DNA from: Candidatus Methanosuratincola petrocarbonis (ex Vanwonterghem et al. 2016)
Lineage (GTDB): Archaea > Thermoproteota > Methanomethylicia > Methanomethylicales > Methanomethylicaceae
Assembly: GCA_001717015.1 (NCBI GenBank)
Contig: MAGV01000052.1
Coordinates: 1 to 18,499, forward strand
DNA length: 18,499 nt
Direction: 5' to 3'
The translations under genes and the position numbers were made by a program. The notes under the pieces were generated by a model. That model saw only the letters and a list, made by a program, of their open reading frames with translations. It was not told the DNA's origin and did not search any database. Below are positions 776 to 18,499 of the stretch, one piece after another (position 1 is the stretch's first letter; the number at the start of each line of letters is the position of its first letter).

Positions 776-3700
776 ATGGCCAAGACCAATCGTGAACGGG
801 TAGGGGAAGGGCTGGAGCTCCTGAGCAAGGGGCTTTCCCCCTTCATAGAGAGGGAGATGAAGGCCACCTACGGAGACCGCTGGACTGAGGAGGCAAAGGC
901 TGTGTTGCGCCAGGCGCCGGGCGGTGTCGAGCCCAACATCCAGGACCCCCATGCTGCCTTATTGCTGCTTTGGTCTCGCTGGAAGGAGGTGTTTGAGAAG
1001 ACCCTGGGACACGCCGAGCGCAGCCTGGTGAGCGAGCTGCGCGAGTTCCGCAACCGCTGGGCGCACATGGAGAACTTCTCCAGCGACGACACCTACAGGG
1101 CGTTGGACAGCGTCTACCGCCTCCTTTCCGCCGTCTCGGCCCCGGAGGCGGAAGAGGCGGAGAAGAAAAAGGTCGAGGTCTTAAGGCTGCGTTTCGACGA
1201 GCAGCGCCGCTGGGAGGAGCGCAAGGCCACCGCGGCTCCCATCCAGGGCCAGCCCATGGGACACTTGAAGCCCTGGAGGGAGGTAGTGACCCCCCATCCC
1301 GACGTCGCCTCCGGCAGGTACCAGCAGGCGGAGTTCGCCGCCGACCTCTGGCAAGTATATCGGGGGGAGGGGACAGACGAGTACAGGGACCCCGCCGAGT
1401 TCTTCCACCGAACCTATCTCACCGAGAGCCTGAAGAGCCTGATGATAAACGCCCTCAGACGCCTCGGCACAGGGGACGGCGAACCGGTGGTGAGGTTGCA
1501 GACCAATTTCGGGGGAGGAAAGACCCATTCCCTCCTCGTCCTCTACCATCTCTTCTCAGGCCTCGCCCCCTCCGAGCTTCCGGGGGTGGAGGAGCTTTTG
1601 GCCGAGGCGGGCTTAAGCATACCCACCGGGGTGAGGAAGGCGGTGTTCGTGGGCACCAAGGTCTCGCCCGGTCAGGTGCACAGGAAAGACGACGGCACCG
1701 AGGTCCGCACCATGTGGGGGGAGATCGCCTGGCAGCTTGGGGGGAGAGAGGGCTATGAACTGATCAGAGAGGCTGACCAGACCGCCACCAACCCCGGCGA
1801 GGCCCTGCGGGAGCTCTTCAACCGCTTCTCGCCCTGCCTCATCCTCATCGACGAGTGGGTGGCCTATGCGCGCCAGCTGCACGAGGAAGGCGGCCTGCCC
1901 GCCGGCACCTTCGAGACCCAGTTCACCTTTGCCCAGGCCCTGGCCGAGGAGGTGCGGGCCTCCAAGAACGCCCTGCTGGTGCTGAGCATCCCCGCCTCGG
2001 AAAGCCCCAGCCCCCAGGAGGGAAGGGAGAGGGTGAGCGAGGCAGAGGTGGGCGGGACCAAGGGCAGGGAGGCGCTGACCCGGCTCAGCAACGCCATCGG
2101 GAGGGTGGAGGCCACCTGGCGCCCGGCAAGCCCCGAGGAGAGCTTCGAGATCGTGCGCCGACGCCTCTTTCAGCCCATCACCGACAACTCGCTTTTCGTG
2201 CAGAGGGACCTGGTGGCCCGGGCCTTCCTGGACATGTATGCCGGCCAGCACCAGGAGTTCCCCTCCGAGTGCAGAGAGGCCGCTTACGAAAGGCGCATCA
2301 AGGCCGCCTACCCCATCCACCCCGAGCTCTTCGACCGCCTGTACAGCGACTGGTCAACCCTGGAGAGGTTCCAGAGGACCAGGGGGGTGCTGCGGCTCAT
2401 GGCCGCGGTCATCCACGCCCTGTGGGAGAAGGAGGACCGCAACCTGCTCATCATGCCGGCCACCATCCCCATGGACGACAACCGCGTGCGCTTCGAGCTC
2501 ACCCGGTACCTCGAGGAGAATTGGGACCCGGTGATCGAACGGGAGATAGACGGGGAGCGTTCCCTCCCCCTGGCCCTGGATCGGGAGAACCCCAACCTGG
2601 GCCGTTTCTCGGCCTGCAGGAGGGTGGCCCGCACCCTGTTCATGGGGTCGGCTCCCCTGCAGAGCCCGGATGCCGCCGCCTCGCAAGGCGCGGCGCACCG
2701 GGGTATCGTAGAAGAGCGTATTAAACTTGGCTGCCTGCAGCCGGGGGAGAGCGTAGCCACCTTCGGGGATGCGCTGCGCCGTCTGACCGACAAGTCCAAC
2801 TACCTCTATATGGATGGGCAACGCTACTGGTACTCGACCACCCCGACGGTCACCAGCTTGGCCATGGACCGGGCGGCCAGATATGAAGAGCACGAGGTCT
2901 TCGAGGAGATAAAGGAGAGGTTGCGCTCCGCGGCGCGGGAGCGAGGGGACTTCTGCCGCGTTCATCCATGCGTCCCGAGCTCCGATATTCCAGACGACAG
3001 AGAAGCCAGGCTGGTCATCTTGGGCCCCGAGCACCCGCATTCTGCGCGCAACACGGAATCGGCGGCGCTCCGCGAGGCCTCCGCTATCCTGCAGTCAAGG
3101 GGGAGCTTGCCGCGCACCTACAAGAACGCCCTGGTCTTTCTGGCCGCGGATACGAACCAGCTCTCCTACCTGGAGGATGCAGTAAGGAACTACATGGCAT
3201 GGGATTCCATACTCAGGGACCGTGAATCGCTGAACCTCGACGTCTTCCAGACCAAGATCGCCGAAAATGGTCACCGGTCTGCGGAAAGTGAGGTCAGCGC
3301 CAAGCTCCCCGAGGCCTACCAGTGGTTGCTGGTACCCGAGCAGCGGGACCCTGTGGGGGATATCACCTGGAGCGAGACACGCCTGCAGGGACAGGACGGC
3401 CTGGCTGTACGCGCCTCCAGGAGGATGAGGAACGACGGGACCCTCTTGGTCACCTACGGGGGGGTAAATCTGCGCCACGAGCTGGACCGCATACCCCTCT
3501 GGAGAGGGGATCACGTGAAGGTGCGCCAGCTCCTGGACGATTTCGCCACCTATCTTTACTTGCCGAGACTACGCAACGATGATGTGCTCAGGGGGGCCAT
3601 CGGGAACGGGCTGGACATAACCTCCTGGGATACGGACACCTTCGCCTATGCCCAGGGCTGGGACGAAGAGAAGCAGAGGTACCTGGGGCTTGCGTACGGA

Positions 3701-4123
3701 AAGCATGTAAGCGTGGTCGCTGATGACAACAGCCTTGTCGTCCACCCCGATGCGGCCTTGCGGCAGATGAGGGAGGAGAGGTCCGTAAGGGCCGGAACAA
3801 ACAGTGGAACGGGAGGTGGTGCGAATACCGCTACGGGCACCACGACCACTCAGGCGAATGAGAGTATGACTGATGTCAAGACCAGGGTTCGGAAGCGCTT
3901 CCACGGCTCAGTAAAGATAGATCCCATACGCATCAACCGCGATGCTCCCACGATCTTCCAGGAAGTCATCCAGCAACTTCTGAGAGTGCACGACGCGAGA
4001 GTGGAGGTGACCTTGGAGATAGCGGCCGAGTTCCCCGAGGGCGCCCCCGAGGACACTGCCCGCGTAGTCACCGAAAACTGCCGCACCTTGAAATTCGACG
4101 ACTACGGCTTTGAAGAGGAATAA
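776..4123 (+). CDS. DUF499 P-loop ATPase with N-terminal Swt1-like HEPN domain
   Basis: This is a 1115-residue protein. Residues 1-130 look like a Swt1-family HEPN domain with an R-x4-H motif (R92-NRWA-H97), the usual active site of HEPN RNases. The ATPase core follows: Walker A at 246-250 (GGGKT, in NFGGGKTHS) and Walker B at 356-360 (ILIDE, followed by W). The middle is the DUF499 region. A low-complexity Gly/Thr/Asn linker (about 1004-1027) joins a small conserved C-terminal domain. DUF499 proteins are related to the large BREX ATPases of the PglY/BrxC type and pair with DUF1156 methylases, so a role in modification-linked phage defence is likely. The exact activity is not known to me. The ATG at 776 has AGGTGA just upstream, overlapping the end of the methylase gene. 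The full length suggests an intact gene. Confidence 0.88.
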   Translation: MAKTNRERVGEGLELLSKGLSPFIEREMKATYGDRWTEEAKAVLRQAPGGVEPNIQDPHAALLLLWSRWKEVFEKTLGHAERSLVSELREFRNRWAHMENFSSDDTYRALDSVYRLLSAVSAPEAEEAEKKKVEVLRLRFDEQRRWEERKATAAPIQGQPMGHLKPWREVVTPHPDVASGRYQQAEFAADLWQVYRGEGTDEYRDPAEFFHRTYLTESLKSLMINALRRLGTGDGEPVVRLQTNFGGGKTHSLLVLYHLFSGLAPSELPGVEELLAEAGLSIPTGVRKAVFVGTKVSPGQVHRKDDGTEVRTMWGEIAWQLGGREGYELIREADQTATNPGEALRELFNRFSPCLILIDEWVAYARQLHEEGGLPAGTFETQFTFAQALAEEVRASKNALLVLSIPASESPSPQEGRERVSEAEVGGTKGREALTRLSNAIGRVEATWRPASPEESFEIVRRRLFQPITDNSLFVQRDLVARAFLDMYAGQHQEFPSECREAAYERRIKAAYPIHPELFDRLYSDWSTLERFQRTRGVLRLMAAVIHALWEKEDRNLLIMPATIPMDDNRVRFELTRYLEENWDPVIEREIDGERSLPLALDRENPNLGRFSACRRVARTLFMGSAPLQSPDAAASQGAAHRGIVEERIKLGCLQPGESVATFGDALRRLTDKSNYLYMDGQRYWYSTTPTVTSLAMDRAARYEEHEVFEEIKERLRSAARERGDFCRVHPCVPSSDIPDDREARLVILGPEHPHSARNTESAALREASAILQSRGSLPRTYKNALVFLAADTNQLSYLEDAVRNYMAWDSILRDRESLNLDVFQTKIAENGHRSAESEVSAKLPEAYQWLLVPEQRDPVGDITWSETRLQGQDGLAVRASRRMRNDGTLLVTYGGVNLRHELDRIPLWRGDHVKVRQLLDDFATYLYLPRLRNDDVLRGAIGNGLDITSWDTDTFAYAQGWDEEKQRYLGLAYGKHVSVVADDNSLVVHPDAALRQMREERSVRAGTNSGTGGGANTATGTTTTQANESMTDVKTRVRKRFHGSVKIDPIRINRDAPTIFQEVIQQLLRVHDARVEVTLEIAAEFPEGAPEDTARVVTENCRTLKFDDYGFEEE

Positions 4124-7170: not shown

Positions 7171-7890
7171 TTAAAGCAAGCAAGCGCTCTGCGGCATTTG
7201 GTCCCATGTCTTACCATCAAGGAGGCGACCACTCCTCTTCTTATTGGCTCCTCCCCATTGTTTGAAGAAGAAAGGCACATTCGCCGCCAGGCAATGGTCG
7301 CGTATCTCTCTGGCCCAGGCGGGGTCCATCGGCCGTGCTTTTGGGCCTGATTCCCCCCCAACAATAACCCAGTCGATGCCTTCCAGGTCTAGGTTGCAAA
7401 TCGGCCCAAGTAGCGGCTCAAACGAAACAAACTTGATGAGGGCATCCGTTTGTTTCAAACAATCTATACGATATGCATACTCGTCGCTTTCCACGCTGAC
7501 CCCCATCCACACATTGGACGGCCAGGGCAGCTCCGACGCCAGTTCGCGGAGCCGCCGCGAACGTTTCGTGAGTACTTGAAAACGGTGATGGGAAGCCTCT
7601 GCCATCACTGAAAAGACCTTAGTTATGAACTCCAGAGTGACCTCTTCGTGGAAGAGGTCACTCATTGAATTGACGAAGATTACCTGAGGGCGTTTCCAAC
7701 GTAGAGGCATCTCAAGCACATGCTCGTGCATTGTCAACTTAAAACCGTTAGCGTAGTTAGGGTGCCCCATGGCCTTCAGGCGTTTGGACATTCGCTCTGC
7801 GTAACAATTCCGACAGCCGGAGCTTATTTTCGTACAGCCGGTTACCGGGTTCCAGGTGGATTCCGTCCACTCTATGGCCGATCTTGCCAT
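7171..7890 (-). CDS. DUF5131 family protein (phage Gp37/Gp68-like, three-Cys motif)
   Basis: The protein has 239 residues when started at the ATG at 7890, which has GAGGTG about 6 bp upstream; an upstream in-frame start at 7947 would add an unrelated tail inside the neighbouring gene. The N-terminus carries [14 protein letters not shown] and the three-cysteine cluster C19-x6-C26-x2-C29-Y-A-E. Later blocks are [30 protein letters not shown] and FFFKQWGG, a set I recognise as the Gp37/Gp68 (DUF5131) family. The family has a radical-SAM-like cysteine signature and usually sits beside TcmP (three-Cys-motif partner protein), as it does here: the tcmP stop is one base before this ATG. The biochemical role is unknown. 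The gene looks complete although its partner is broken. It converges on the AlbA_2 gene. Confidence 0.88.
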
Positions 7891-7891
7891 A

Positions 7892-8553
7892 CTATGCACC
7901 TCGGTTCCTGTATTTCGCGAATATATCCATGACGATCTTCTCTGCAACCGATTGCTGGCTGGCGAAATAGAGATAATATATCACTGCACCCTTCGTATTG
8001 CGCATAGGCATGGGCTTAAGTGCATGATTGAATCCCGCTTTCTCTTGAAGCCTTTTTTGAAAGGCCTTCGCAACTGCCTCGTTACCCAGCTTCACTTCTT
8101 CATCGCCGAAGAGCGTCAGCATTTTTCCGTAAGCGATATCTCGCCAAGATTCATCACCCCAGAAAGCGTTCATGCGTGCTATTCCTTCCGCAGGGACATT
8201 TTCGGGATTACGCCATAGGGCGTTCCTGTTAATGTCCATGATGGGAAAGTTTAAGAAAAGATCGATGGTGCGAAGCCTGCCGGCAGTCTCGATTACCTCC
8301 CAGTTTAGATGCAACCCGTAGGGGTCGAGAAGACAAAGACCTCGCCTATAATCCTCATAACACACGCGGGGGAACACCTCCTCAAGGAGGACTTTGTTGC
8401 AATCACCTTCAAAGATATAAACGTTTGGTTGGCTCCCAACAAGGCTTCTTAGGTATTCGACCTTATCTCCGTCAAGGTCTATAAAATAGAACCGACTGAA
8501 TTCAGGCTTAATATTCAAGGCGTTAAGCGGGCTTCCAGGGATAAACTCAACGG
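7892..8553 (-). pseudogene. tcmP: three-Cys-motif partner protein TcmP, 5'-truncated
   Basis: From about 8550 down to the stop at 7892 the minus strand encodes typical TcmP sequence: EFIPGSPLNALN, FYFIDLDGDK, IFEGDCNKVL, CLLDPYGLHL, IDLFLNFPIMDINRN and ARMNAFWGDESW. The N-terminal ~75 residues expected in the family, including the aspartate/FAG-type motif of its methyltransferase-like fold, are missing. Upstream of about 8555 the frame stays open to 8917, but only as the antisense of a glycoside hydrolase gene, so that extension is not TcmP. TcmP is the coupled partner of DUF5131 and the two genes are one base apart here. A shortened 224-residue product could start at an ATG at 8566 with GAGGT upstream. 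Either the locus was broken by recombination or the assembly joined two pieces. Confidence 0.8.
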
Positions 8554-8560
8554 CTACGGC
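8540..8560. other. Breakpoint joining two 5'-truncated genes head to head
   Basis: Left of this point the minus strand encodes TcmP; right of it the plus strand encodes a GH99-like protein. Both genes have lost their 5' ends exactly here. Base composition also changes by eye, from mixed to clearly GC-rich. No inverted or direct repeat or insertion element is seen at the seam. It is a recombination scar or an assembly join. Confidence 0.65.
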
Positions 8561-9130
8561 GATCATCCGGCTTACCTCGGGATAGACGGAGAGCCCCTCT
8601 TCGCCGTGTGGGCCTCCCAGGCGGTACCCCTTGACGACCGGGAACGCATATTCGCCGAGCTGCTTAGGCACGGGCTTGACGGCTTCTGCATGGCCGAGTT
8701 CAGCGGGGGTCATCCCAAGACCGGGGCACTCGAGGTCTTTGATGGGTTGCACAGCTACAATATCGTGGGCGTGGCGCTGGACGCTGGAGGTATGGAGAGC
8801 CTTGCTTGCATTTACCAGAATGCTGGCCGTATGGTGACCAAAAACCATCTCCTGCAGGAGGAAGGGGCTCCCCGCAAGGTGTGGGCAGCGACGGCCCAAC
8901 CCGGGAACGATGACCATCTCATCCCTGGTTGGCCGGGAATGGTGCTACCGCGCGAGGAAGGGGAGACCTATCGCCAGAGCTTCGCAGCGGCGCTGGCGAG
9001 AGTTCCCGATTACGTCATCATCACCTCTTGGAACGAGCGGTGGGAGCATACCTTCATTGAGCCCAGCGAGGCTTTCGGTGACCTGTACCTCAACATAACC
9101 GCGGAGTGCCTGGGAACCTGGGAGGAATGA
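8555..9130 (+). pseudogene. GH99/WbsX-like glycoside hydrolase, 5'-truncated C-terminal fragment
   Basis: About 190 residues of coherent coding sequence run to the TGA at 9128-9130. HPAYLGIDGEPLFAVW near the start and ITSWNERWEHTFIEPS near the end resemble the GH99-like/WbsX family (endo-alpha-mannosidase fold, usually in surface polysaccharide loci), where SWNEWxEGTxIEP is the family hallmark. Family members usually exceed 300 residues, so the N-terminal half is missing. The frame stays formally open further left, but from about 8550 leftwards it is the antisense of tcmP. A GTG at 8606 is the first formal start downstream of the break and has no convincing ribosome site. The tail LYLNITAECLGTWEE looks like a natural C-terminus. 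The context is inconsistent with defence function; the fragment is probably a relic. Confidence 0.7.
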
Positions 9131-13601: not shown

Positions 13602-15299
13602 ATGGCGAAGATGATCCCGGATATAAAGGTGAGGAAGGGAGCGCTGGGGGAGGAGAGGCTCTACCTGGCCCTGAAAGAAAGCCTCCCCGACGAATACACC
13701 GTTTTCCACTCCCTGCCCTTCGTCTCCGTGGAGGAAGGAAGGGGCATATACGAACACGAGATCGATTTCCTCGTCATCCACCGCGAGCTGGGCTTTCTGG
13801 ACATCGAGGTCAAGGGCGGCCGAGAGATCCGCTATCTGCAAAAGCGCAGGGAATGGATATCCGTCTCGCATCGGGGCGAGGAGCACGTGATCTCCAGGGA
13901 CCCCTACCGACAGGCCAGCGACAATATCCACTGGCTCGCGCGGGAGATCGTGAAACGCGGGGTGCTGGAAGGCGGTGAGGAAAGATTTCCCTTTACGCAC
14001 GGATACGCGGTGGCCTTCCCCGACGCCACCGTGGACACCAGGTATTTCCCGATGCACACACGGAAGGAGCTGACGCTGGACCGCTCCGATCTCGGGCGCA
14101 TCTATGAACGGGTCTCGGGGATCATGGAGCAGTGGCGGAGGGAGGGGAAGTCCAGGGTCATAAGCGAGCGCGAATACAACGACCTCTGCAACAAGTTCCT
14201 CATGCCGGAGTTCCGCGTCGCCGCGTCCATCGCCAAGCGCATCGAGGACGAGGAGGCGCAGCTCATCCGCCTCACCGAGGAGCAGTGCCGCCTGCTGGAC
14301 TTTTTGCGCAACCAGAAGCAGGCGCTCATCCAGGGCTACGCGGGGACCGGCAAGACGCAGCTCGCGGTGGAGAAGGCGCGCCGCCTCGCCGCGGAGGGCA
14401 AGAAGGTGTTGCTCATGTGCTTCAACTCGCCCCTGGCCCGCTACCTGGAATCCGTGGTCGGGGACGAGGGGGGCGCCATCACCATCGACAACTACCACAA
14501 CCTCTGCGCCCGCATGGCGGAGAAGGCGGGCATCCCCTTCGAGGTGCCCCCCGAGGAGAAAAAGGAGGAGCGCAAGCGCTTCTGGGACCGGGACTGCGCC
14601 GCCATCCTCGAGGAGGCCTTGGACAGGGTGGACGCCCGCTTCGACGCGGTGATCATCGACGAAGGCCAGGACTTCCGGGAGGAATGGACGCGCAGCGTCT
14701 TCAAGCTCCTGCGGGAGGGGAGGGACGGGTGCCTGTACACCTTCTTCGACGAGAGGCAGAACATCTACCGCGATGAGCTGCATTTCCCCATCCAGGGCGA
14801 GCCCTACGTCCTCCACGAGAACTGTCGCAACACCCAGAGGATATGCGAGCTGGCGGGGGACATCGGCGGCGTTGACCCGGAATCCTACGTATACGACAAG
14901 AACCCGCAGGGCGAGGAGGTCAGGTTCAAGGCCTACGGCCGGCGCGAGGACCAGCCGAGGATCATCGCCGACATCGTGGCCGGGCTCCTCAAGAAGGGCG
15001 TCTCGCCGGGGCAGATAACCGTGCTCTCTCCCCATATAAGGGAGAAGAGCTGCATGGCCGGGGTGGAGGAGCTTGCGGGATGCCGGGTGCTCGACTACTC
15101 GGAACGCATGCCCGCGGATGCGGTGTGCTTCTCGTCCCTTAAGAGGTTCAAGGGGCTGGAATCCGACGTGGTCATCTTCTGCGACATGGACGGGAAGTTC
15201 CCCATCCACAACCCCCTGGACCAATATGTGGCGGTATCACGGGCCAAGCACCTTCTATATGTGGTGCATGACAGGGACTGGAAACCGCCGGCGGGATAG
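13602..15299 (+). CDS. NERD nuclease domain fused to SF1 (UvrD-like) helicase
   Basis: This is a 565-residue protein. The N-terminal NERD domain (about residues 10-200) has GALGEERL at its start and a nuclease-like centre E53-I-D55 ... D67-I-E69-V-K71, the D-(E)xK pattern of restriction-like folds. The helicase follows: motif I G245-YAGTGKT-252, motif II V350-IIDEGQD-357, motif III near Y379-TFFDERQ-386, motif IV E406-NCRNT, and motif VI V543-AVSRAKHLLYVV with R547. NERD-SF1 fusions act on DNA ends or foreign DNA, and the nuclease-helicase pairing recalls defence proteins such as Nhi. Strong AGGGGTGA lies 6 bp before the ATG. All motifs are intact. It precedes the SMC cassette by 116 bp on the same strand and may work with it, but it could also stand alone. 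Confidence 0.86.
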   Translation: MAKMIPDIKVRKGALGEERLYLALKESLPDEYTVFHSLPFVSVEEGRGIYEHEIDFLVIHRELGFLDIEVKGGREIRYLQKRREWISVSHRGEEHVISRDPYRQASDNIHWLAREIVKRGVLEGGEERFPFTHGYAVAFPDATVDTRYFPMHTRKELTLDRSDLGRIYERVSGIMEQWRREGKSRVISEREYNDLCNKFLMPEFRVAASIAKRIEDEEAQLIRLTEEQCRLLDFLRNQKQALIQGYAGTGKTQLAVEKARRLAAEGKKVLLMCFNSPLARYLESVVGDEGGAITIDNYHNLCARMAEKAGIPFEVPPEEKKEERKRFWDRDCAAILEEALDRVDARFDAVIIDEGQDFREEWTRSVFKLLREGRDGCLYTFFDERQNIYRDELHFPIQGEPYVLHENCRNTQRICELAGDIGGVDPESYVYDKNPQGEEVRFKAYGRREDQPRIIADIVAGLLKKGVSPGQITVLSPHIREKSCMAGVEELAGCRVLDYSERMPADAVCFSSLKRFKGLESDVVIFCDMDGKFPIHNPLDQYVAVSRAKHLLYVVHDRDWKPPAG

Positions 15300-15343: not shown

Positions 15344-15415
15344 TATTTCCAGGCAGTAAGGACAGGGCCAATAAAAAATCTCGGGCCCGTGTTGGCGTCT
15401 CGCGAGGAAGGTCGC

Positions 15416-15628
15416 ATGGAAGAGAGGAAGCGCATAGAAGATAAGATAAGGGAGCTGGCTGAGAACGAGGAGGAAGAGCGCCTGTGCCTGGAGCTGCTGG
15501 ACGGCGCCTACCGGGGCCTCGAGGAAGGATCGTCCAAGGGCGCCCTCGACGAGGTCAAGGGCAGGCTGGATGCCGTCCTGAAGGAGATGGAGGAGATCGC
15601 GAAAAAGATCGGGGACAGGATAGGGTAG
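15416..15628 (+). CDS. Small acidic coiled-coil protein upstream of SMC ATPase
   Basis: The protein has 70 residues from the ATG at 15416, with GAGGAAGG just upstream; a GTG/TTG pair 24-27 bp earlier is possible but less well supported. It is almost wholly helical and charged (MEERKRIEDKIRELAENEEEE, then ALDEVKGRLDAVLKEMEEIAKKIGD), with leucine/isoleucine spacing that fits a coiled coil, and it has no signal or membrane segment. It ends 13 bp before the Rad50-like gene, so the two are very likely co-translated, and it may bind or regulate that ATPase like the small third subunits of Lamassu/Ddm systems. I do not recognise a family. The coding call rests on the start signal, codon pattern and tight spacing. 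Confidence 0.68.
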   Translation: MEERKRIEDKIRELAENEEEERLCLELLDGAYRGLEEGSSKGALDEVKGRLDAVLKEMEEIAKKIGDRIG

Positions 15629-15641
15629 CGGGTGATGGGCC

Positions 15642-17792
15642 ATGGCCGAGAACATCAGGCTGAAAGAGATAAAGATAAAAGGCTTCCGGGGCTACGGCAG
15701 GGAGGAGGTAAGAATCGACCTCTCCGATCCCGTGGTCCTCCTCTACGGCGGCAACCGCTCAGGCAAGAGCAGCACCACCAACGCCGTGGAGTGGGCGCTG
15801 TACGGCGGTGAGGTGACCGGCAAGAAGATCGGCATCGCGGAGAGGAAAGGCTGGGAGGCGCGCAACCGCCACTGCGATTCCATAGGCGTGGAGCTGGTGC
15901 TGGAGTCGGACGCCGGCGAGATCCGCGTGGTCAGGGAGATGGGAGAGAAGAAGAGGTCCGGGGAATCGTTCTATTTCGTGGACGAGAACGGCGAGAAGAA
16001 CAAAAACCAGGAAGAGCTGTGGAGCCGGCTGGGCATGGACGCGAGGGATTTCATGAGTTCCGCCTACCTCCACCAGGAGGTGATCAGGGACATCGTGGTG
16101 AGCGAGCCGCGCGTGAGGGAGGAAGCGCTCAACCGCCTTCTGGGCATCTCCGACCTCTTCAACCTCTCCAAGTCGCTCAAGGATATAAAGAAGAAGAGCT
16201 ACGAGGATGCGGTCAGCAATACCTACGAGAGACTTCAACAGCTCATCAAGACGAAGTCCTCCGCCTATCAGGAGACCATCGACGGTTCCATCGAAGAAGG
16301 CGAAGCGCTGGGGATGGCGAAGGGCGATTTCACCGATAAGGGCTTTGGCGAGCGTTGCTCGAAGGCATGCGAGCTGGTGAAGGGCCTCGCGAAAAAGGCC
16401 GGACTCGAGGACCCGGGGCTCGAGCCTCCCGAGGATACAACCGACTTCATGGGGTTCGAATCCCGGGCCAAGGAGGCCGTGCGAGCTTTGAGGAACGAGA
16501 ATCCCGCCGCCGTGTCGCAGGCAGCTCTCGTAGAGGAAAGGGGAGAGCTCGACGCGGCGCTTTCCGAGTACCGGAGCAAGAAAGAGAGGAAGGAAAGACT
16601 CCTCGAGGAGAAAAGAGAGCTGGAGAAGGAAGGCGGTCAGGAGGAGCTGGAGAGAAAGAAGCAGGAGCTAGAGGAGAGGCAGAAAGAACTGGAGGAAGAG
16701 CTGGGCCGCATCAACACCCGCCTGCCGGTGATCGAGGCGACCGTCACCTACCTGGAGAGGCTGGAGGACAAGGAGGGGACGACCGCCTGCCCATCCTGCG
16801 AGCAGGACATCGTCCCGCGGGAGGTGCTTGCGCGGCTGCGGGAAGTGAAGGCCGGCATGGGGGAGGAGGCGGGCGAGAAAAGCGGGGAGAAGAAAGAGCT
16901 GGCCGAGTCCTTGTCCTCCCTGGAGGAGACCGTCGAGCGGCTGAGGAAGATCCAGGAGGTCGAGCTTCCCAAGGCCGTCGAGGAAATGAAAAGGTGCCGC
17001 GAGAAGATCGGCGAGATACTCGAGCGCGAGATCGGCGAGGACGAGGATCCCGAGTCCATTGCCAACAAGCGGCTGGAAGAAATAGAGGACAAGCTGGAGA
17101 AGACCAAGAAGCTCCTGCAGGAGTACAACCGGGAGATCGACGGCATAGAGGATGCCCTGAAGGAGGCGCGGCTCATCCGGGATGTTCTGGAAACAAAGGA
17201 GAAGATCGCGGTCATCGGGAAGATCACGGAATCGCGAGAATGGGAAGAGATGGGAGAGACTCGCGCAAAGCTCTTCCAGGAGCTGGAAGCGGCGAAAAAG
17301 GTGAAGGGCGCCGTCGATGCGGTCATCAACGAGCTGGCCGGCGAGAAGCTGCGCGAAACGGAGGATGCCATCTCCTCGTATTACCGGGCCCTGGTGGAGA
17401 GACCGGATTTCGAGTCCATCATGATAGACCCGGAAGACCACGACGTGTACGCGGTGAGCGGCAAGGACAAGGAAAAGGTCATCAAATTCTTCAACCAGGG
17501 GGACATGAACTGCGCCGCCCTGAGCATCTTCCTAGCCCTGGGGGGCAGCTCCGCGCGGGAGGGGGCGACCGGGTTCCTCGTCCTGGACGACCCCTCCCAG
17601 AGCCTGGACTCGGAGCAGAAGCGCAAGCTGGCGGCGCTCATCGACCGGGTGGCGGCGGACAGGCAGGTCGTCCTGGCCACCATGGATGAGGAGCTGCTCA
17701 AGGCCCTGCAGAGCAATGTCTCTAAGGTCAAGAGGGTCTACCGCTTTGGGGAATGGGACCCGGTCAAGGGGCCGTCGATCAAAGGGGAATGA
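15642..17792 (+). CDS. Rad50/SMC-like ATPase with zinc hook
   Basis: This is a 716-residue protein. The N-terminal half-ATPase has KIKGFRGY and Walker A G36-GNRSGKS-43. A basic-acidic region follows, then two long charged coiled coils (about 295-375 and 390-530) on either side of a CPSC zinc hook (C383, C386), as in Rad50/SbcC. The C-terminal half has a signature segment FNQGDMN (617-623) in place of LSGGQ, Walker B L646-VLDD-650 with the D-loop S654-LD, and an H-loop-like ATMDE near the end. Zinc-hook SMC ATPases sense or tether DNA ends, and in Lamassu/DdmABC they trigger a nuclease partner. No SbcD (Mre11) gene follows; instead a PD-(D/E)XK nuclease starts 6 bp after the stop. Housekeeping SbcC is longer (about 1000 residues), so a dedicated defence role is more likely. 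Confidence 0.88.
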   Translation: MAENIRLKEIKIKGFRGYGREEVRIDLSDPVVLLYGGNRSGKSSTTNAVEWALYGGEVTGKKIGIAERKGWEARNRHCDSIGVELVLESDAGEIRVVREMGEKKRSGESFYFVDENGEKNKNQEELWSRLGMDARDFMSSAYLHQEVIRDIVVSEPRVREEALNRLLGISDLFNLSKSLKDIKKKSYEDAVSNTYERLQQLIKTKSSAYQETIDGSIEEGEALGMAKGDFTDKGFGERCSKACELVKGLAKKAGLEDPGLEPPEDTTDFMGFESRAKEAVRALRNENPAAVSQAALVEERGELDAALSEYRSKKERKERLLEEKRELEKEGGQEELERKKQELEERQKELEEELGRINTRLPVIEATVTYLERLEDKEGTTACPSCEQDIVPREVLARLREVKAGMGEEAGEKSGEKKELAESLSSLEETVERLRKIQEVELPKAVEEMKRCREKIGEILEREIGEDEDPESIANKRLEEIEDKLEKTKKLLQEYNREIDGIEDALKEARLIRDVLETKEKIAVIGKITESREWEEMGETRAKLFQELEAAKKVKGAVDAVINELAGEKLRETEDAISSYYRALVERPDFESIMIDPEDHDVYAVSGKDKEKVIKFFNQGDMNCAALSIFLALGGSSAREGATGFLVLDDPSQSLDSEQKRKLAALIDRVAADRQVVLATMDEELLKALQSNVSKVKRVYRFGEWDPVKGPSIKGE

Positions 17793-17798
17793 ACACGG

Positions 17799-18320
17799 AT
17801 GGGGCTGCCCTACGAGACCGCCCGGAAACTGGAGGAGCTATATGGGTGCCACGAGAAGGAGTTCGGCAAGGTGGTCCAGAAGCTCCTGGCCCTCACCTTA
17901 GTGGAGATGGGCTTCGGCCTGGCGGAGGAGCGCGCCGTGCAGGGCGTGGACATCGACGTCATCGCGCCGGGCGGCGAGAAGCTGTCCTTCGAGGTGAAGA
18001 CGAGCCAGAGCGCGCAGGTGACGGTTCAGGACAAGGATATCCAAGGGCTGGAGTCCCGGCTGAACGCGGACGGCTACCGGCCCCTCTTCGCCTTCATCTT
18101 CCGCCCCCATTACCTGGGGGACGGCTGGATCATCGTGCCGGCCGGGCGGGTCAAGAAGGGTACCCACAACGCCATGCGGCTGGCAAGCCTGGACGACGGC
18201 TCCCTATCGCGGGAGGTCAACGCCCGCTTCCCGGAGTTGGTCGAGCGCACCTTCGACGATCTCATGGACTGCAGGCGGGGAACCGCCCTTAATATGTTGA
18301 AAGGGAAGTACGGGATTTGA
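17799..18320 (+). CDS. PD-(D/E)XK nuclease partner of the SMC ATPase
   Basis: This is a 173-residue protein whose ATG is 6 bp after the ATPase stop, with AAGGGGAATGA upstream, so the two are translationally coupled. The core is a restriction-like fold: helix with E21 in EKEFGKVVQKLLAL, then G49-V-D51-I-D53 at the end of a strand, then F64-E65-V-K67-T-S, giving the E-x-K metal-binding site with D51/D53 upstream, as in Hjc-type resolvases and Mrr-like or Cap4-like nucleases. A C-terminal segment with FAFIFRPHYLGDGWIIVPAG continues the sheet. It probably cuts DNA when the SMC partner is engaged; the substrate is unknown. No target-recognition domain is visible, so specificity would come from the ATPase. 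All catalytic residues are present. Confidence 0.82.
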   Translation: MGLPYETARKLEELYGCHEKEFGKVVQKLLALTLVEMGFGLAEERAVQGVDIDVIAPGGEKLSFEVKTSQSAQVTVQDKDIQGLESRLNADGYRPLFAFIFRPHYLGDGWIIVPAGRVKKGTHNAMRLASLDDGSLSREVNARFPELVERTFDDLMDCRRGTALNMLKGKYGI

Positions 18321-18388: not shown

Positions 18389-18499
18389 TTATCATCCCAG
18401 GCGCAAAGACCCCTCAGGGGATGCGGTACGTCTCCACTTGCGTCCCCATTTCACAAGCACGCCTTCTTGAGTTATTGCGCGTTATCATCCCAGGCGCAA
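18389..18499. repeat. 18-nt direct repeat, second copy cut by window end
   Basis: TTATCATCCCAGGCGCAA occurs at 18389-18406 and again at 18482-18499, 93 bp apart, with the second copy ending at the last base. Between them lie the dyad CCCCTCAGGGG (18410-18420) and a wider inverted pair ACGCAAGT (18381-18388) with ACTTGCGT (18436-18443). CATCCC inside the repeat can also pair with GGGATG (18418-18423). The full repeat unit may extend past the window. Confidence 0.55.

Follow-up and report, generated by a model that had tools for sequence, protein, structure and literature searches.

What kind of system is encoded by three closely spaced genes in which an SMC-like ATPase lies between a small helical protein and a nuclease? 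The cassette occupies the forward strand of the window, by which we mean the whole 18,499-nucleotide stretch that was analysed. Its first gene (15416..15628) begins with ATG and codes for an acidic helical protein of 70 aa; an in-frame GTG at 15389, upstream of this ATG, is a possible alternative start that would give a protein of 79 aa. After a gap of 13 bp comes the gene for a zinc-hook SMC/Rad50-like ATPase of 716 aa (15642..17792), and 6 bp further on the gene for a Hjc-like PD-(D/E)xK nuclease of 173 aa (17799..18320). An earlier note on this DNA had described these ORFs and their spacings, which the ORF coordinates confirm, and had proposed that they encode a version of Lamassu/DdmABC, either reduced or sister to it, that might be an undescribed defence type. 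The contig belongs to an archaeal bin, yet it shows likeness to hot-spring Actinomycetota.

The three genes form one conserved unit. Searching with the ATPase alone recovered 34 loci, spread over many groups of bacteria and some of archaea. The nuclease profile matches the gene directly downstream of the ATPase in 33 of them; in the 34th, L014, the contig stops 104 bp past the ATPase stop codon. A homologous small protein is encoded upstream of the ATPase in all 30 loci that have upstream DNA, so the gene-neighbourhood check called for in the earlier note finds the trio kept together. In leave-one-out profile searches, the small upstream ORF, initially chosen by eye, came top in each of 31 loci, one of them the window, and reached E<0.01 in 30. 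Some profile searches scored only candidates from a set that was capped or preselected by words. The three proteins also co-vary in a test on 27 rows, the set used for motif counts as well, which comprises the window and 26 of the 34 loci. Left out of this set were L012, L014, L029 and L035 and the 5'-truncated L024, L027, L028 and L034; L025 was retained despite a scaffold gap that throws the greater part of its ATPase out of frame.

Its sequence and AF2 model (pLDDT 87.6) show the ATPase to be an ABC head of the Rad50 type, carried on a short coiled coil with arms of about 190 residues each that a zinc hook closes at the apex. Rad50 structures are its top Foldseek matches, with LmuB chains second. 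The Walker A motif GGNRSGKSS (residues 36-44, 15747..15773, + strand) and the CPSC hook (residues 383-386, 16788..16799, +) are present, and the hook, of the Rad50 CxxC type, matches the Rad50 zinc-hook structure 1l8d. The ABC signature region FNQGDMNCAALSIFL (residues 617-631, 17490..17534, +) takes a family-specific form. The Walker B/D-loop segment FLVLDDPSQSLD (residues 645-656, 17574..17609, +), part of the stretch LVLDDPSQSLD, is also present as the earlier note had it, with Asp replacing the catalytic Glu. Across 57 sequences, C383, P384 and C386 of the hook and D649, D650, P651 and Q653 are invariant. D650 is found in 26 of the 27 rows, the other being L025, which has an X there, out of frame behind its scaffold gap. 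The H-loop His is missing from nearly all ATPase rows. The Glu-to-Asp change after Walker B and the lost H-loop His suggest slow ATP turnover, as in a latch and not a processive motor. Given the Rad50-type head and the zinc hook, the ATPase is expected to form dimers through the hook and, once ATP is bound, to clamp DNA with its heads.

The downstream gene codes for a Hjc-like PD-(D/E)xK endonuclease whose active site is intact, as judged from a conserved motif, structure matches and an AF2 model (pLDDT 93.3). Archaeal Hjc enzymes are its nearest solved structures (1gef, 4.1e-6). The D-ExK motif already noticed earlier lies at D51...E65-x-K67 (GVDID-x9-SFEVK; 17949..17999, +), and its three residues, together with L11, G23 and Q27, are invariant in alignments of 29 and 48 sequences. 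Lengths range from 161 to 193 aa in the 27-row set. The cassette nuclease differs from the Hjc and RecU Holliday junction resolvases by helices added at both ends, among them a helical stretch at the C terminus (about residues 140-173) that lies outside the Hjc match, and by sharing an operon with an ATPase. Six PADLOC families were matched among 48 nuclease members, each by a single member (best E 0.00089).

The 70-residue ORF of the earlier note is borne out, and its homologues are 61-76 aa long in 29 of 30 loci and 100 aa in L035, with starts partly set by eye. No consistent Pfam or PADLOC family emerged from 31 members. The weak strays were Myb_DNA-bind_4 in three members (best 0.0026), HSBP1 in two (0.00084) and four single-member PADLOC matches (best E 0.0017), none of them LmuC. 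A sequence-level look for a DndE-type partner found no ribbon-helix-helix family among the Pfam matches of the 31 proteins. Similarity of the small-protein profile to designed helical PDB proteins (8ugc, 9.4e-6) was taken as likeness in helical composition. The small helical protein is a constant partner of the ATPase and nuclease.

We compared the cassette to Lamassu/DdmABC/ABC-3C systems, with which it shares an SMC-like sensor of ~650-720 aa with a short coiled coil and zinc hook, a nuclease effector, a small subunit and likely sensing of DNA ends or structures. The general design proposed in the earlier note holds on paper, but the tests do not support a reduced Lamassu or a sister of it: the LmuB match is unspecific, and the two systems differ in their small subunit, in the order of their genes and in how the effector is built. 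A reduced bona fide Lamassu, consisting of LmuA and LmuB with a shrunken LmuC, would account for the similar component types, for the second rank of LmuB chains in Foldseek and for PADLOC LmuB matches to the window ATPase (1.4e-46) and to 35 of 35 aligned relatives. Within the phylum of the bin, the same model matches 115 of 250 genomes, and nine of the ten matches scanned there look Rad50-like, fitting Rad50, ASRP or arcadin-4 models. Its match to the cassette ATPase is unspecific and no better than its matches to other SMC-like proteins of that phylum. A genuine LmuB, at locus L036 (PADLOC LmuB 1.5e-130, matching PDB Lamassu chains), scored an insignificant 11.2 bits against the cassette ATPase profile. 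Its operon runs from a 302-aa ORF through a 162-aa ORF to LmuB, which has the Walker B LDQPSQ, and the cassette small protein and nuclease have no detectable similarity to the L036 ORFs.

LmuB is a DUF3732-type SMC subunit; DUF3732 was absent from the ATPase's Pfam matches up to E 1, in a Pfam copy whose inclusion of this model is unconfirmed. LmuA joins an exchangeable N-terminal effector to a C-terminal docking domain, whereas the cassette effector is fixed in the loci seen, every one of the 33 testable loci having the same type of nuclease. The genes are ordered small protein-ATPase-nuclease in the cassette and LmuA-LmuC-LmuB in Lamassu. According to PMC10586767, the catalytic Glu of Walker B is generally replaced by Gln in LmuB, many LmuB proteins carry a zinc hook, and the middle subunit LmuC is missing from some systems. 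The hook is a shared feature that favours a Lamassu origin. The cassette has Asp, not Gln, in 26 of 27 rows, and its small protein comes first in the operon and has no LmuC match. By the tests made, the cassette resembles Lamassu in layout and is not a member; we consider a reduced Lamassu highly improbable.

Rad50-Mre11/SbcCD complexes also combine a Rad50-type head and CPxC zinc hook with a dedicated nuclease partner. The cassette ATPase is shorter (716 aa vs 872-888 positions of Rad50 models), has DDPSQ where DEP is usual after Walker B, and has mostly lost the H-loop His. Its partner is a PD-(D/E)xK nuclease and not the Mre11 phosphoesterase, and there is an additional 70-aa subunit. The Hjc-like enzyme lies alongside in all 33 testable loci, and no Mre11/SbcD family occurs among the matches of the window's scanned ORFs. 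The earlier note held that firm grouping with housekeeping SbcC and with Hjc would refute its reading. This is half the case: Rad50 and Hjc are the nearest structures, yet the ATPase scores 59.7 bits vs a 700 cut-off (PRK03918) and 54.8 vs 1087 (PRK02224), and the nuclease 17.6 vs 21.1 (Pfam Hjc) and 19.3 vs 70 (NCBIfam Hjc). In the CxC ABC-ATPase/DndE and PbeABCD defence operons described in PMC10853773, a coiled-coil ABC ATPase with a zinc hook likewise has a small partner, and nucleases lie nearby. The cassette hook is an invariant CPxC (C383-P-x-C386), not CxC, and the three-gene unit includes no Pbe or Dnd genes. Locus L038 encodes a Rad50-like ORF with DDPSQSMD (324 bits), a 56-aa upstream ORF that scored best of 31 ORFs against the small-protein profile at an E of only 0.045, and, by eye, a zinc-ribbon-like ORF in the nuclease position; these features are only suggestive of a possible sister system.

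A defence island surrounds the cassette on the window contig. We weighed whether the upstream NERD-helicase gene (13602-15299) is a fourth component and treat it as separate, none being recognised in the flanks looked at non-systematically. Elsewhere, four of ten nearby proteins scanned individually match PADLOC at 1e-8. The 107 flanking ORFs tallied, hand-picked from 172 preselected by length and distance, are mixed and include gyrase, H+-pyrophosphatase and LeuA-like genes. Defence neighbours are common on the window contig and mixed elsewhere; with mixed tallies and no control set, we gave defence-island enrichment across loci little weight. Integrase/transposase-like ORFs were judged by eye to lie upstream of copies L026 and L013.

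These ORFs, and the interleaving of phyla in a quick tree of the family, are what a plasmid- or mobile-element-linked maintenance or addiction module, cutting competitors or replication intermediates, would lead us to expect. In this tree the outgroup sits on long branches, and the group labels cluster no better than after shuffling, with 83 of 200 shuffles giving a value as low. Mixed phylum labels are not proof of transfer; some may be wrong because most loci sit in metagenome bins. Against such a module, tRNA genes occur in only 2 of 20 loci scanned, one weak partial match (28%) was found among 72,556 plasmid records, and viral and phage collections gave none, the viral scan using two peptide patterns. 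We regard it as quite unlikely. Near-absence from plasmids and absence from phages sit better with a horizontally spread complex for repair or DNA-end processing, an alternative to SbcCD/Mre11-Rad50 in which a Hjc-like nuclease stands in for Mre11 and serves the host chromosome. Rad50 and Hjc are the closest folds, and each of nine genomes checked has a single copy. The distribution argues the other way, being patchy (6 of 31 genomes of one class, one of the six holding a 240-residue 5' fragment of the ATPase with no nuclease in the stretch examined), as does the defence island on the window contig. At a strict threshold, SbcD was found in 4 of 12 cassette genomes. A looser search of that class found SbcD-like matches, all weak, partial and below the curated cut-off, in 25 of 31 genomes: five of the six that carry the cassette and 20 of the 25 that lack it. 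This co-occurrence speaks against a repair substitute, and in view of it we do not read the strict-threshold result as a loss of SbcCD. A repair role seems rather unlikely.

We favour, at about even confidence, a Rad50-type sensor of DNA ends or structures that licenses a Hjc-like nuclease, in a patchy, probably mobile and defensive cassette. The patchy distribution across mixed phyla and the defence island on the contig suggest a role against phage or plasmid DNA; the repair-like folds, the mixed flanks outside the window contig, the lack of matches in viral and phage collections and the single partial plasmid match count against it. All three gene products would form a single complex. On invading DNA, the ATPase may detect ends or unusual structures such as hairpins, forks and junctions. 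The nuclease would dock by way of its C-terminal helices and stay inactive or off the DNA until clamping, driven by ATP, allows it to cut. The small protein could be an assembly or inhibitory subunit, by analogy with kleisin-like or LmuC-type subunits of related machines. As to novelty, the earlier note's undescribed type agrees with the libraries and literature searched, in which we found no description of the trio, including the available parts of PMC10586767, PMC10853773 and PMC12904381; ABC-ATPase classification or newer Lamassu structural work could mention the family. The defence half of that claim is our inference.

More tentatively, the cassette may represent a family of immune complexes, undescribed and found in both domains, that sense DNA ends or junctions. 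In these complexes a zinc-hook ATPase of the Rad50 type would have a Hjc-derived nuclease and a 70-aa regulator as its permanent partners, a second independent route from the Rad50 repair machine to immunity besides Lamassu. If so, a Rad50-type sensor would be coupled to an unrelated nuclease, of resolvase fold and not Mre11, outside Lamassu. Current defence annotation would be missing the nuclease and small protein of this system and mislabelling its ATPase as LmuB. With a small, fixed set of subunits totalling ~960 residues, the cassette would be a minimal system, possibly a thermostable one, in which to study how nucleases are turned on by SMC-like ATPases at DNA ends.

The three open reading frames of the cassette, re-derived from the sequence, agree with the arrangement described in the earlier note. 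All lie on the plus strand and encode a small helical protein (15416-15628, 70 aa), a zinc-hook SMC/Rad50-like ATPase (15642-17792, 716 aa), and a nuclease (17799-18320, 173 aa), with gaps of 13 and 6 bp. The ATG of the small protein at 15416 is preceded by a ribosome-binding-like stretch, GAGGAAGG; an in-frame GTG at 15389 is a possible alternative start. The ATPase matches the Pfam models SMC_N and AAA_23 and contains Walker A, Q-loop, CPSC hook, and Walker B motifs. The nuclease has the active site D51...E65-x-K67, and its sole Pfam match, to Hjc, is sub-threshold. Scans with Pfam, PADLOC, and other profiles gave no consistent family for the small protein or its relatives. At the thresholds used, the window copy matched only GeBP-like_C (0.56) and Lmo0654 (0.25), and the relatives gave stray weak matches, in single members each.

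We queried 84,980 species genomes using only the ATPase alignment (two peptide patterns), blind to neighboring genes, and found 34 ATPase loci with identities of 26-71%. The next gene downstream matched the nuclease profile in 33 of them; at the remaining locus (L014), the contig stops 104 bp past the ATPase stop codon. Upstream of the ATPase, 30 of the 34 loci carry a short reading frame (61-100 aa, median 69.5, with some starts picked by eye), which ends between 14 bases inside and 109 bases before the matched ATPase start. At the other four (L024, L027, L028, and L034), the contig starts within the ATPase. A leave-one-out small-protein profile ranked the upstream ORF first in 31/31 loci, the window counted, with E<0.01 in 30. 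The nuclease frame opens 101 bases before to 73 bases after the ATPase stop in the 31 loci measured, 6 of which show 4-base overlaps when start codons are chosen mechanically. Pairwise distances for the three proteins were correlated (0.66-0.69, 27 rows), and none of 5000 permutations was equally high. A protein search returned at least 44 ATPase and at least 25 nuclease relatives; for 7 of the 25 nuclease matches listed, the longest contig equals in size that of an ATPase match. This neighborhood check upholds the proposal that the three genes are conserved together elsewhere. Neighbor conservation and correlated distances indicate that the trio travels and evolves together, and the cassette is a real and conserved three-gene unit of the SMC/Rad50-plus-nuclease kind that is apparently undescribed.

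The 34 loci carry labels from a wide range of bacterial phyla; five are labeled archaeal (L017, L018, L026, L030, and L031). Archaeal rows adjoin bacterial ones in a quick ATPase tree (e.g., L018 with L020, 98; L026 with L033, 95), and phylum labels show no more clustering than after shuffling (83 of 200 shuffles scored as low); bins may be mislabeled, and this mixing is no proof of transfer. Matches occur in 6 of 31 genomes of the class that contains the Solincola genome with locus L003, and five of these have all three genes within the fetched stretch. In the sixth (L093, 1251-3618), the ATPase behind the small gene breaks off after a 240-residue 5' part. Tandem repeats and unrelated sequence come next, and no nuclease was found in the fetched stretch, so we regard this copy as broken or misassembled. 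Among 300 genomes of the bin's phylum, there was no match at E<=1e-20 beyond the window's own genome. Viral contigs and phages gave no match, and plasmids a single partial one (28%).

The bin holding the window contig is archaeal by SSU and LSU rRNA. The tetranucleotide profile of the window fits Solincola L003 at 0.73, compared with 0.57 for its own bin. The low bin fit is weak evidence alone because, of 13 other bin stretches, 8 fit the bin at >=0.769 but 5 at only 0.29-0.62; no stretch among the 13 exceeds 0.54 against Solincola. This profile and the nearest named cassettes in the ATPase tree both point to hot-spring Actinomycetota (Solincola), and the contig is probably mis-binned. The cassette findings are unaffected. 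At 18389-18499, an 18-base sequence occurs twice, exactly, 93 bases apart, the second copy ending at the contig end. No further copy is present in the bin, and this is possibly a repeat-broken assembly end.

The cassette had been read as a reduced or sister form of Lamassu/DdmABC. The window ATPase matches the PADLOC LmuB model PDLC03859 (1.4e-46), as do all 35 aligned members of its family. This match is unspecific, since the model also hits proteins resembling Rad50 across the bin's phylum. It reaches E<=1e-30 in 115 of 250 genomes there, the window's own among them, and nine of ten other matching proteins scanned match models of Rad50, ASRP, or arcadin-4, every one with a best E value <=2.5e-36 yet below curated cut-offs. 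Lamassu calls resting on PDLC03859 alone would be unreliable in this phylum. The tenth protein (L036) matches PDLC03859 at 1.5e-130 and solved Lamassu LmuB chains, and it stands behind ORFs of 302 and 162 aa. The cassette ATPase-family profile gives this genuine LmuB only 11.2 bits. Walker B has Asp in the cassette ATPase but Gln in Lamassu, the small subunit and gene order differ, and the nuclease is unvarying in the cassette. By these differences, the cassette is not a Lamassu system. CxC-hook ATPases occur paired with DndE, according to PMC10853773; their hook, as given there, is unlike that of the cassette, as is the partner as far as tested. The nearest outgroup of the cassette ATPase family (L038, 324 bits) is one of the nine Rad50/ASRP/arcadin-4 matches. 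Its locus (886-4111, minus strand), found within the bin's phylum, has a Rad50-like ATPase with DDPSQSMD, a small ORF weakly matching the cassette small protein (E 0.045), and a zinc-ribbon-like ORF where the cassette has its nuclease. It is a possible sister system. Simple replacement of SbcCD by the cassette is disfavored, since SbcD-like matches occur in 5/6 genomes with the cassette and 20/25 without it.

The window contig also carries HmaB/HmaC, GmrSD-like, Schlafen AlbA, TcmP/DUF5131, and NERD-helicase genes. The HmaC-like ATPase (776-4123, PADLOC 1111 bits) has an N-terminal Swt1-like HEPN domain outside the HmaC-model match, and the HmaB-like ORF at the contig start (1-765) matches its model over the C-terminal part alone. 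DUF5131 and the three-Cys-motif partner TcmP (PADLOC PDC-M41A) form an overlapping pair on the minus strand (7171-8917). The NERD nuclease-helicase (13602-15299) lies upstream of the cassette and matches PADLOC RTasNERD-Hel (1.6e-73); no reverse transcriptase was recognized among the window ORFs scanned. The flanks of other loci give a mixed picture: 4/10 singly scanned proteins match PADLOC at 1e-8, and 107 flanking ORFs, tallied without a control set, include HerA, OLD, methyltransferase, and Csm3 beside housekeeping genes.

Lamassu senses DNA ends or hairpins and then activates a nuclease, according to two reviews (PMC10586767 and PMC12904381), and the cassette may work in a Lamassu-like way. 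Composition, conservation, predicted folds, and the intact nuclease site suggest a model in which the ATPase would dimerize through its hook and, driven by ATP with slow turnover, clamp on DNA ends or structures. Clamping would then release or activate the nuclease, with the small protein as a putative assembly or inhibitory subunit. The patchy distribution across mixed phyla and the defense genes on the window contig suggest that the role of the cassette would be defense.
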